Below are positions 4,411 to 53,019 of a stretch of DNA of 53,019 nucleotides, in pieces (the stretch's first letter is position 1; every line of letters begins with the position of its first letter). Position numbers and translations under genes: made by a program. The stretch comes from Sulfurovum sp. Lineage in GTDB: Bacteria > Campylobacterota > Campylobacteria > Campylobacterales > Sulfurovaceae. The notes below the pieces were generated by a model. That model was not told the origin of the DNA and did no database searches. It saw nothing but the letters and a program-made list of their open reading frames with translations. The stretch is taken from positions 1 through 53,019 of the forward strand of contig JALSUP010000181.1 of the NCBI GenBank assembly GCA_027071315.1, read 5' to 3'.

Positions 4411-4842
4411 ATGGATAAGGCATTTTTACTCTATGTGATGGTCGGTCTGGGATTTTTCTATGTTATTACGCATTATGTCGGAGAGATACAGAAAGAAGAT
4501 GAAGTCATTGGGAAAAGTGTCTATGCGAAAGAGCATAAATATGACAACTCCTTCGGAACAGATAATGTCGGACGTGTGGTGTTTGACCTTCCAAATGCCA
4601 ATCTCTCCACACAAATGAAAGTATGGAATGAAACTTCATTTAAAGAGGAGTTGTTAGCGCTTTTCCCCTCTTTTGAAGAGATGAAAGTCTTTATAGAAGA
4701 CAGGGTACAGAGTGAAGCCTTGCGTGAAAAACTGCTTCTACAGCTTGCAAAGGCGGAAGACGGATTCCTCTCCGGAACGATGAACGGGAAAGAAGTCAAA
4801 GCATCGTTGAGTACGCTCAAGGGGACCGCTGATAATAGGTGA
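4411..4842 (+). CDS. Hypothetical membrane-anchored protein
   Basis: A 143-residue protein whose ATG directly follows the ilvD stop, so it is probably co-transcribed. Residues 4-20 form one hydrophobic segment with a short N-terminal tail; the rest is polar with an amphipathic helical region (about 75-125). No family is recognised. The last codons (from 4823) lie inside the left arm of the long-hairpin repeat, so the C-terminus is probably encoded by, or was duplicated into, that element. No link to branched-chain amino-acid synthesis beyond position can be claimed. Confidence 0.7.
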   Translation: MDKAFLLYVMVGLGFFYVITHYVGEIQKEDEVIGKSVYAKEHKYDNSFGTDNVGRVVFDLPNANLSTQMKVWNETSFKEELLALFPSFEEMKVFIEDRVQSEALREKLLLQLAKAEDGFLSGTMNGKEVKASLSTLKGTADNR

Positions 4843-5084
4843 TATCCACAACATCTCTAGCTTTTGTCTAGGCTAGGCACTCTTTTGAAGTCCTAGCCGT
4901 AGCTAAGTCAAAAAAGAGTAACAACGCATAGGCGAAAGCTAGTGATGCCCGAAGGGTGGGCTTTACAAACGCAATCTTGCATAAGATACTTACTTCGTCT
5001 TAGCTATGGCTAGGACTTGAAAGTCTCTTGCCCAATCTTACATTTGTAAAATCCATTGTGGGAATTACCTATTATCAGCGGTCC
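4823..5084. repeat. Long-hairpin dispersed repeat, copy 1
   Basis: The core (about 4846-5061) is roughly 90% identical by eye to 21341-21555. The outer arms 4823-4840 and 5067-5084 are an 18-bp perfect inverted repeat (GGACCGCTGATAATAGGT and complement), followed inward by CCACAA/TTGTGG. A second inverted pair lies inside (AAGTCCTAGCC-TAGCTAAG near 4887-4910 and its complement near 4998-5020). The outer arms are not shared with copy 2. The element sits between convergent genes and its left arm overlaps the end of the 4411-4842 gene. Confidence 0.85.
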
Positions 5085-5095
5085 ACTAGGTAAAT

Positions 5096-6289
5096 TTACT
5101 GCTTTGAATCGCTGTGCGTGATCTTCTCATGCCAGGCAGAAAGTGTCTTTTCAAAACCGATCTGCCGGGTTTCATAAAAGTGCAGTCCTTTACTCAGATA
5201 GGACTGTGCCACCCAACCCCCAAAATCATGCGGATAGACATACGTTTTCGCATGTGTCTTAATATGATCAGGAATAGGGTAGATCTCTCCGTCCTGAATG
5301 GCTTTCTGTGCTTTATTGATCGCCATATAGGCCGTATTGGACTTGGGTGATGACGCCAGGTAGATGACCAGTTGGGAGAGCGATATGCGTGCTTCCGGGT
5401 AGCCGATATGTTTGACAATATTCAATGTCGAGGAAGCAAGGTTCAGGGCAGGGGGGTTGGCATTGCCAATGTCCTCGGATGCCAAAATAGCCAAACGCCG
5501 GGCAATAAACTCTGCCGGTTCCCCTCCCTCGATCAATCTTGCCAGATAATAGACCGCAGCATCGATGTCAGAGCCTCTAATACTCTTGATCATGGCAGAG
5601 GTCAGCTCGTAGTGACTTTCGCTCTCAGATGAGCCTGCCTGCATCGCGTGGGGGCGAATCTGTTTGAGTGTGGAGAGTGTGACAGGCGTATGCACAGCTT
5701 GTGCACTCTCGAGAAGGTTCAACATGGCTCTCACATCTCCTCCGCTTGAAAATACCAGATACGCTTTGGCATCCTCTTCAATCAGCACTTTCTCAACTGT
5801 CGCAATTTTTTCTAAATAGGCAAGCATATCATCCTGGGAAAGGGCTTCCAACTCAAAAAGGTGTGAACGCGAACGCATGGCAGCGGTCAAAGAGTAGTAA
5901 GGGTTCTCTGTTGAAGCCCCTATAATGAGTGCTGCGTTATTTTCCATAAAAGGCAGCAGTACTTCCTGCTGGTTTTTACTTAAACGATGCACTTCATCTA
6001 TGAAGATGAGGGGTTTCTGCAGGGCATTTTGGTACTCTTTGAAGATCTTTCGTAACTCTTCTATTTTTAGGGATGTGGCATTCATTTCATAAAAAGGACG
6101 CTGCAGATCTGTGGCAATGATCCGTGCCAGCGTGGTCTTCCCACAGCCCGGAGGCCCGTAAAAGAAGGTATGTGGAAGCTTTTTACTCTCTATGAGCTTC
6201 TGAAGGACGGCATTTTTGCCTAAGAGATGCTGCTGCCCAATGATCTCATTGAGGGTCTTGGGACGGTATTTGAGTGCCAGATTTACCAC
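5096..6289 (-). CDS. rarA: Replication-associated recombination protein A (RarA/MgsA)
   Basis: A 397-residue AAA+ ATPase of the RarA/Mgs1/WRNIP1 family, acting at stalled replication forks. Walker A is at Gly45-Thr52 (GPPGCGKT), Walker B at 95-99 (IFIDE), and sensor 1 in the Ala-Ser-Thr-Glu-Asn-Pro block near residue 129. The C-terminal half carries the MgsA tetramerisation region. The size is slightly below the E. coli protein (about 447). The ATG is four bases after the stop of the rluB-like gene, so it is the last gene of the minus-strand run. Its 3' end comes close to the long-hairpin repeat. Confidence 0.93.
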   Translation of the reverse strand: MVNLALKYRPKTLNEIIGQQHLLGKNAVLQKLIESKKLPHTFFYGPPGCGKTTLARIIATDLQRPFYEMNATSLKIEELRKIFKEYQNALQKPLIFIDEVHRLSKNQQEVLLPFMENNAALIIGASTENPYYSLTAAMRSRSHLFELEALSQDDMLAYLEKIATVEKVLIEEDAKAYLVFSSGGDVRAMLNLLESAQAVHTPVTLSTLKQIRPHAMQAGSSESESHYELTSAMIKSIRGSDIDAAVYYLARLIEGGEPAEFIARRLAILASEDIGNANPPALNLASSTLNIVKHIGYPEARISLSQLVIYLASSPKSNTAYMAINKAQKAIQDGEIYPIPDHIKTHAKTYVYPHDFGGWVAQSYLSKGLHFYETRQIGFEKTLSAWHEKITHSDSKQ

Positions 6290-21314: not shown

Positions 21315-21580
21315 TTGAACCCTCTGCACAACCTAGCCGTTCACAACATCTCTAGCTTTTTTCTAGGTTAGGCACTCTTTTGAAAGCCTAGCCATAGCTA
21401 AGGTGAAAAAGAGTAACAACGCATAGGCAAGCTAGTGATGCCTGAAGGGTGGGCTTTGCAAACGCAATCTTGCACAAGATATTTACTTCGTCTTAGCTAT
21501 GGCTAGGACTCATAAATCTCTTGCACAATCTCACATTTTCAAAACCCATTGTGAATGTCTAGGTTGTTCAGAGTGTTCAA
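21315..21580. repeat. Long-hairpin dispersed repeat, copy 2
   Basis: The core (21341-21555) matches copy 1 at about 90% by eye, including the inner inverted pair (CCTAGCCATAGCTAAG / CTTAGCTATGGCTAGG). The outer arms 21315-21346 and 21549-21580 are a 32-base inverted repeat with four mismatches. Beyond the shared CACAA/TTGTG junction they have no resemblance to the arms of copy 1. The element lies between divergent gltA and ppnP, so it cannot be only a transcription terminator. Confidence 0.85.
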
Positions 21581-49146: not shown

Positions 49147-49231
49147 AAATTACTTTGTAGAGAAAAGAAGACAGATTAATCTTGGAATGGATATACTAGC
49201 AGTAGAAATAAGTTATGAACATATAGGGTTA

Positions 49232-49243
49232 TTAGAGGTGCCC
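49232..49243. repeat. TTAGAGGTGCCC motif, site 2
   Basis: Identical to 26758-26769 and complementary to 52898-52909; it lies 20 bases upstream of the secreted repeat protein gene. Confidence 0.4.
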
Positions 49244-49262: not shown

Positions 49263-50063
49263 ATGGTAAAAATAAAACATCTGTATGTAGTGTTAATATG
49301 GGCAGGACTACTACTACCTTCCTCCATATGGGCAGAGCACTTTTGGGTGGGTCTGTTTTCCAAAAAAACACCCTACACAGAACAGTCTTTAATTGTGAGT
49401 ACGAAACTGAGTCATTTTAATACCTCTATTGAAAGAGAGTGGCGTAATAATTCTCAAATTGTCGACATAGAATACGGCGATGACCGCTGGATGGCAATCT
49501 CTGCCAAAGGAACGGGCTATACGCAGCAGGTCTATATTCATAAGCGAGACTGGAAAAAATTTGAAGCTTCGGTAGCGGCTTACTCTCAACAGGGATTCAA
49601 GCTTATCAATGTGGAGAACGGCAAGGGGTACTGGCTTGGCATCATGGCAAAAGGGACAGACTATACGGATGTCATACTTAAAAATATCCGTTATGAAGAG
49701 GCATTTCTCAAAGAAATCACCAGGCAGTGGAATGCAGGCTATCATTTGATCGATGTCGAGCCGGCAGAAGGTACCTGGGTAGGTATTTTTGCCAAAGGTA
49801 CGGGTTTTGAAGACCAGGATTACCACAGTGTCGATGACTGGGATGCCGTTCCCGGTATCATCAAAGAGCGATGGGATCAAGGCTACAGACTGCTCAATGT
49901 GGAATACGGCGGAGGAAAATGGTTCTGTATCTTTGTGAAAGACAAGAGAGCAAGAATTGAGTCTTACTCTGTCAATTCCAGAATTCCTGCCTTTAGAAAG
50001 TCGATTCATAAGCAGTGGAACAGAGGATATCAGCTGATTGACCTGGCACACGGAAGAGACTAA
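49263..50063 (+). CDS. Secreted five-repeat protein (DUF7477-like)
   Basis: A 266-residue protein with a signal peptide (about 1-24) and strong AAAGGAG upstream. The mature part is built of ~48-residue repeats of the form Trp-x2-Gly-Tyr-x-Leu-Ile-x-Val-Glu-x-Gly-x-Gly-x-Trp-x-Gly-Ile-x-Ala-Lys-Gly-Thr. Four are complete; the N-terminus begins with the second half of a unit (Phe-Trp-Val-Gly-Leu-Phe) and the C-terminus ends with the first half (Trp-Asn-Arg-Gly-Tyr-Gln-Leu-Ile-Asp). Such split units often close a ring, so a five-bladed propeller is suggested. I recall DUF7477 for similar repeats; function unknown. Confidence 0.75.
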   Translation: MVKIKHLYVVLIWAGLLLPSSIWAEHFWVGLFSKKTPYTEQSLIVSTKLSHFNTSIEREWRNNSQIVDIEYGDDRWMAISAKGTGYTQQVYIHKRDWKKFEASVAAYSQQGFKLINVENGKGYWLGIMAKGTDYTDVILKNIRYEEAFLKEITRQWNAGYHLIDVEPAEGTWVGIFAKGTGFEDQDYHSVDDWDAVPGIIKERWDQGYRLLNVEYGGGKWFCIFVKDKRARIESYSVNSRIPAFRKSIHKQWNRGYQLIDLAHGRD

Positions 50064-52726: not shown

Positions 52727-53019
52727 AGAGAGGGTATCAATACCGCCCCTATTTCTGGAGAATTGGATCAGAGAAGATATAGGATACAAAATCCAGTTAA
52801 AGATCTTTTATCATGGAAATTGCGGATATATTTGCGGGTATTTATAGTGATGAAGTATTACATTATAGGGGAAGGTCTGCTTTATTATATGCTTTATGGG
52901 CACCTCTAAAAATACCCTCCCAATTCCAAAATCAGAACCTAAAGTCATTATTCCTCAAATGATGCCTTCATTCATTTGAGAGAAATTCTATAAAATCAAT
53001 AGAAAAAATTCTTCCATAA
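52727..53019. other. Right-edge intergenic region
   Basis: 293 bases to the window end without a convincing gene. It holds a GGTATCAATACC palindrome just after the cytochrome gene (about 52735-52746), and at 52898 an inverted TTAGAGGTGCCC copy followed by AAAATACCCTCCC. The latter could be the terminal repeat of an insertion sequence continuing to the right. Confidence 0.4.
52898..52909. repeat. TTAGAGGTGCCC motif, site 3 (inverted)
   Basis: GGGCACCTCTAA, the reverse complement of the motif at 26758 and 49232. Confidence 0.4.

Follow-up and report, generated by a model that had tools for sequence, protein, structure and literature searches.

A putative non-autonomous transposon with long pairing arms at the end of a Sulfurovum gene

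The locus and extent of the element

In the present study, we analysed a stretch of 53,019 nucleotides from Sulfurovum sp. (contig JALSUP010000181.1 of assembly GCA_027071315.1; hereafter, the window), in which an element with long inverted arms is located between two convergent genes (Table 1). An inverted repeat was found at 4820-4851/5056-5087, the 32-nt arms of which are 88% complementary and lie 204 nt apart, with a shorter inverted repeat nested within it. The edges of this element, copy 1, were placed at 4821-5086 by a comparison with 92 copies, the set that was also used for the family-wide analyses of arms and of the tree. The hairpin originally predicted at 4823-5084 is, thus, real, but its edges lie 2 bp further out on each side. 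The length of 266 bp is within 1 bp of that of nearly all type A and C copies (265-267 bp). The whole element is a quasi-palindrome and carries no transposase gene within its 266 bp, and the predicted fold of copy 1 is very stable, with an MFE of -114 to -116 kcal/mol.

Table 1. Positions of the element, its parts, its relatives, and the neighbouring genes in the window.
Feature	Position	Strand	Remarks
Upstream gene, 143 aa	4411..4842	+	no Pfam/NCBIfam match
Candidate full MITE, subtype A (copy 1)	4821..5086	+ (core orientation defined as +)	length and ends as in other type A/C copies
Left terminal inverted repeat GGGGACCGCTGATAATAGGTGATATCCAC; family consensus GGGNACCTCTAATAATAGGTGATACCCAC	4821..4849	+	
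Conserved non-coding core, two imperfect hairpins	4850..5057	+	
Core hairpin I, element positions 37-122	4857..4942	+	consensus structure, paired changes
Core hairpin II, element positions 142-230	4962..5050	+	consensus structure, paired changes
Right terminal inverted repeat, reverse complement GTGGACCGCTGATAATAGGTAATTCCCAC	5058..5086	-	
Convergent neighbour, RarA/MgsA-like AAA+ ATPase	5096..6289	-	
Copy 2 of the element, TIR subtype B (GAACCCTCTG...)	21317..21578	+	
Truncated remnant, one type C TIR end only	49212..49243	-	

Copies and subtypes of the family

A search of the own genome detected 13 full copies, such that copy 1 is one of at least 13 in this bacterium. When copies were aligned outward from the core, their terminal inverted repeats (TIRs) of ~27 bp fell into three mutually alignable subtypes: A (GGGNACCTCTAATAATAGGTGATACC), carried by copy 1 and five more copies in the own genome; B (GAACCCTCTGAATAACCTAG), which is divergent but homologous and is carried by copy 2 and three more; and C (GGGCACCTCTAATAACCCTAGATGC), carried by three. 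The core was correctly predicted to be common to copies 1 and 2 (89% identity over 214 bp), and L002 is 93% identical to copy 1 across the whole element. The outer arms had been described as unique to the site of copy 1; however, the type A TIR is also present in L002-L005 and L007 of the own genome and in dozens of copies in relatives. At the family level, copies do share fixed arms, namely, ordinary TIRs of three subtypes, and those of copies 1 and 2 looked unrelated because a type A copy had been compared with a type B copy. The lone type C end in the window (Table 1) sits upstream of an ORF at 49263.

Within the genus, 33 of 60 related genomes contain matches, as do three genomes from a different family within the order. 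When named genomes were scanned for the pattern, 106 matches were obtained, and the 80 listed among them are labelled as Sulfurovum, Nitratifractor or otherwise unnamed Campylobacterota/Epsilonproteobacteria. The architecture is kept at identities of 75-93%, with many paired changes. None of the Rfam covariance models matched the element near any family threshold.

Target duplications and insertion sites

Exact 4-bp duplications flank 24 of the 47 type A copies and 22 of the 35 type C copies, against 4.4 and 2.7, respectively, expected from shuffled right flanks; the two types together have 46/82, with about 7 expected, and no other duplication length was in excess in these types. The type B copies have no clear duplication (one of ten). 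Copy 1, the flanks of which are TCAA/TAGG, has no visible target duplication, and a small later change at its right junction is one possible reason. Duplicated targets are AT-rich (TTTA, TATA, TAAA, TTAA, and ATAT). Insertion by the IS5 family generates a 4-bp duplication at an AT-rich target, and the duplications of the present family fit this specificity. None of the 53 copies with longer flanks lies within an ORF; 6 are located between convergent genes and 13 between divergent genes, and in tandem contexts there was no preferred orientation relative to the genes (16 vs 16).

We consider the element to be a non-autonomous transposon of Sulfurovum and related Campylobacterota, specifically a type II MITE, in which the TIRs alone resemble an autonomous element, that is most likely mobilised in trans by IS5-superfamily transposases (probability about 0.9).

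Candidate partner insertion sequences

In the own genome (G000), PF01609 transposase genes at C211 and C206 terminate next to GGGCACCTCTAATAACCC and GGGCACCTCTAAAAACCC. The first belongs to the IS5 family by NCBIfam NF033581 (IS5_4; 172 bits, cutoff 140), and a full-length relative that is 79% identical to it scores 258 with the same model; the second resembles IS1182, with a score under the IS1182 cutoff. These IS5-superfamily insertion sequences (NF033581; IS1182-like) have, next to their transposase gene, the terminal repeat GGGCACCTCTAAWAACCC that is also the TIR of the element; the element differs from them in having no transposase and shares the ends alone. From this sharing of ends, we infer mobilisation in trans by IS5-type transposases: DDE transposases encoded elsewhere in this genome by other insertion sequences would most likely recognise the GGGNACCTCTAAWAA ends, and the element would insert into AT-rich intergenic sites, where 4 bp are duplicated.

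An autonomous partner with matching ends is present in the genome, in which only the right end of the IS5 element is assembled; an autonomous element complete with a type A TIR on each side was not obtained because contigs stop ~120 bp inside the insertion sequence. A more abundant insertion sequence with GGGMACCTCTAAAAATAC ends terminates many contigs, and the two window ends are among these breaks: positions 1-121 and 52898-53019 lie within the terminal sequences of this high-copy insertion sequence (GGGAACCTCTAAAAATAC / GGGCACCTCTAAAAATAC). At L106 (635-2360, G024), an IS256-like transposase gene, the frame of which is broken, splits an IS5-type copy with an internal deletion.

The end of the upstream gene

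As originally predicted, the left arm is also the end of the upstream gene: the last six codons (GTADNR) and the TGA stop at 4840-4842 of the ORF at 4411-4842 belong to the left TIR, which starts at the third base of the Lys137 codon and continues with GGG ACC GCT GAT AAT AGG TGA. Flanking ORFs of other copies also terminate 22 nt into the element. Among homologues of the upstream protein, about 50 of 65 loci stop right after the residue aligned with Lys137. As these homologues show, the element inserted at the upstream gene's native stop codon, and the TIR now supplies the gene end, comprising six codons and a stop. The gene ends within the arm because of this insertion site and the stop codon of the TIR itself, which account for the overlap that had been interpreted as the right arm being an inverted copy of a gene end. 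The original stop may persist as TAG at 5087, outside the element. This locus is a concrete case of a transposon end that has become the end of a protein-coding gene.

The same gene end was compared in a related clade, in which G001 is empty (CCCTTAAGTAG), whereas G052 reads CCCTTTA, an insert of 24 bp, and then TTAAGTAG. Inserts of 24 bp, about 6 bp, and about 46 bp were observed at L317, L320, and L312 (G052, G048, and G037, respectively), while G001 and G029 are empty. The short inserts in G048 and G037 may be remnants, and a hot spot for insertion or a series of remnants is possible at this gene end in relatives.

Short forms of the element

A 24-bp form, GGGCACCTCTAATAATAGGTGCCC (up to one mismatch), was detected in 14 genomes of the genus. 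Each arm carries an AGGT repeat, and the 24-bp sequence is exactly that expected after a deletion between the two; 50-bp type C forms likewise fit a deletion at a GGGTT repeat. Such deletions, between short direct repeats carried by the arms, would probably leave these remnants, and we regard both forms as probable deletion scars on the basis of their junctions. The own genome contains five palindromic remnants of 50 or 24 bp, consisting of the TIR and TIR-adjacent sequence only (C140:38514-38563, C168:5221-5270, C18:945-968, C148:6716-6739, and C163:3100-3123), and four of the five have exact 4-bp duplications.

The 24-bp forms may instead be mobile minimal elements themselves, a possibility that we consider doubtful but worth retaining. 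Exact 4-bp duplications flank 19 of the 30 forms examined (5.2 expected), the site of one inserted form is empty in a relative (G052 vs G001), and in one genome a 24-bp form is present in the absence of any full copy. However, the junction is exactly as predicted by a deletion between AGGT repeats, and target duplications would outlast such a deletion. Four candidate pairs were aligned in search of a full element and a 24-bp remnant that occupy one orthologous base, and no clean pair was obtained: in three, the two forms are in one intergenic region or in adjacent regions, but at other bases or with another subtype, and one is elsewhere.

Paired changes between the arms

The claim that arms differ between copies and yet pair was confirmed with statistical support for types A and C (within-genome permutation p < 0.0003): the two arms of a copy are more alike than when arms are permuted among copies that share genome and subtype (type A, 0/5000 permutations; type C, p = 0.0002). 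Deviations from the subtype consensus were mirrored 22 times in type A (4.0 expected) and 57 times in type C (9.0 expected), the latter of which contains inherited sets. In copy 1, T8->G, which is in no other copy, and A11->G are present in both arms. On the tree of 92 copies, Watson-Crick to Watson-Crick double changes on a single branch numbered 87 for the outer stem and 56 for the inner stems, counts that contain some inherited subtype differences, against 0-5 when partners were slid by 1-3 columns. Because of these paired changes, the pairing of the hairpin is not a product of chance. Among bases private to one copy, 12 were mirrored in the outer stem, including T8->G of copy 1, against 0-5 with slid partners; the 7 in the inner stems, against 1-5, are not convincing.

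Evolution via G-U intermediates would favour transitions. In the outer stem, transitions and transversions were in a ratio of 53:34 among double changes and 79:50 among single changes, i.e., the same transition share of 61%, which fits any mutation being copied across the arms. Template switching has been reported to create and repair hairpins (PMC8794818). As in the maintenance of hairpins by template switching and in quasipalindrome mutations, both stem arms of the present element change on one branch without a G-U intermediate; however, the previous study describes RNA genes, while the process inferred here concerns the arms of a mobile element (PMC8794818).

The original prediction offered three mechanisms for arms that differ and still pair, of which template switching between the arms fits the spectrum of paired changes, the inversion of target flanks was refuted, and selection on the whole hairpin, considered below as selection on a folded RNA, has mixed evidence. 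Hairpin-templated copying from arm to arm explains the paired arm changes best. During replication, a mutation in one arm would be copied to its partner, most likely through template switching on the hairpin, such that copies may drift apart while each remains self-complementary.

Regarding selection, the core may be a functional structured RNA transcribed from the + strand, with arms kept paired by selection on the fold rather than by DNA copying, which we consider unlikely. The architecture is constant at the above identities, and single changes leaving G-U pairs are more frequent on the + strand than on the - strand (75 vs 35 events, p = 0.0002), an excess that is not explained by the mutation spectrum because unpaired transitions have no comparable strand bias (197 vs 208). 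On the other hand, the G-U bias is weak when counted per base pair (26 vs 15, p = 0.12) and is absent from copy-private changes, the - strand fold is predicted to be more stable in 78 of 92 copies, orientation relative to genes is neutral, paired changes are not enriched in transitions, and Rfam gave no match. A combination, in which a strand-specific RNA structure in the core is under selection while being carried as a transposon, and the fold is kept by both selection and template switching between the arms, appears similarly improbable; if true, the family would document hairpin-templated mutation in nature. The long hairpin is available in dozens of copies with different ages, which allow paired changes, intermediates, and deletion scars to be counted, and the family is a good natural test of whether template switching or selection on RNA matches inverted repeats.

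Comparison with known elements and other origins of the arms

The element resembles bacterial MITEs, such as Correia/NEMIS, RUP, ERIC, and QMITE of Coxiella, in being shorter than 500 bp and non-coding, with TIRs of ~27 bp, and also in its short target duplications, intergenic sites, strong hairpin, and shortened copies; QMITE1 of Coxiella ranges from 39 to 400 bp (PMC10969869). In a comparison of these characteristics rather than of the sequences directly, it differs from the same MITEs by a 4-bp duplication, three TIR subtypes on one core, 24-bp minimal forms, and the absence of an Rfam match. REP elements, which are mobilised by RAYT, are palindromes of 20-40 bp with a GTAG/CGTC tag and a tyrosine transposase; the present element, at 266 bp with DDE-type ends, is not of this type. 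The family was not found described in the open papers searched, with most subscription journals and ISfinder lying outside that search. It is a new MITE family of a kind already known.

A bidirectional transcription terminator or a REP-like stabiliser of mRNA 3' ends serving the convergent pair is a very improbable reading of the element: copy 1 is located between convergent genes and has a strong predicted fold, but this context is shared by only 6 of the 53 copies, fewer than the 13 between divergent genes, and the length of 266 bp, the transposon ends, and the target duplications in the family argue against it. An mRNA 3' element was ruled out by the absence of an orientation preference, and a pre-existing palindrome as the target of a loop insertion by the arms being family TIRs. 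A secondary effect on transcripts is possible at the site of copy 1.

The formation of the arms at each site upon insertion, by inversion or template-switched copying of the target flank, would account for a left arm that overlaps a gene end with its inverted copy on the right and for the different arms of the two copies in the window, but is refuted as their origin by the presence of the same arms in the five other own-genome copies and dozens in relatives, by homologues of the upstream gene that stop at the arm edge and lack the arm sequence, and by the 4-bp duplication beyond the arms in most type A/C copies, because of which no target flank was inverted; it survives only as later homogenisation of the arms.
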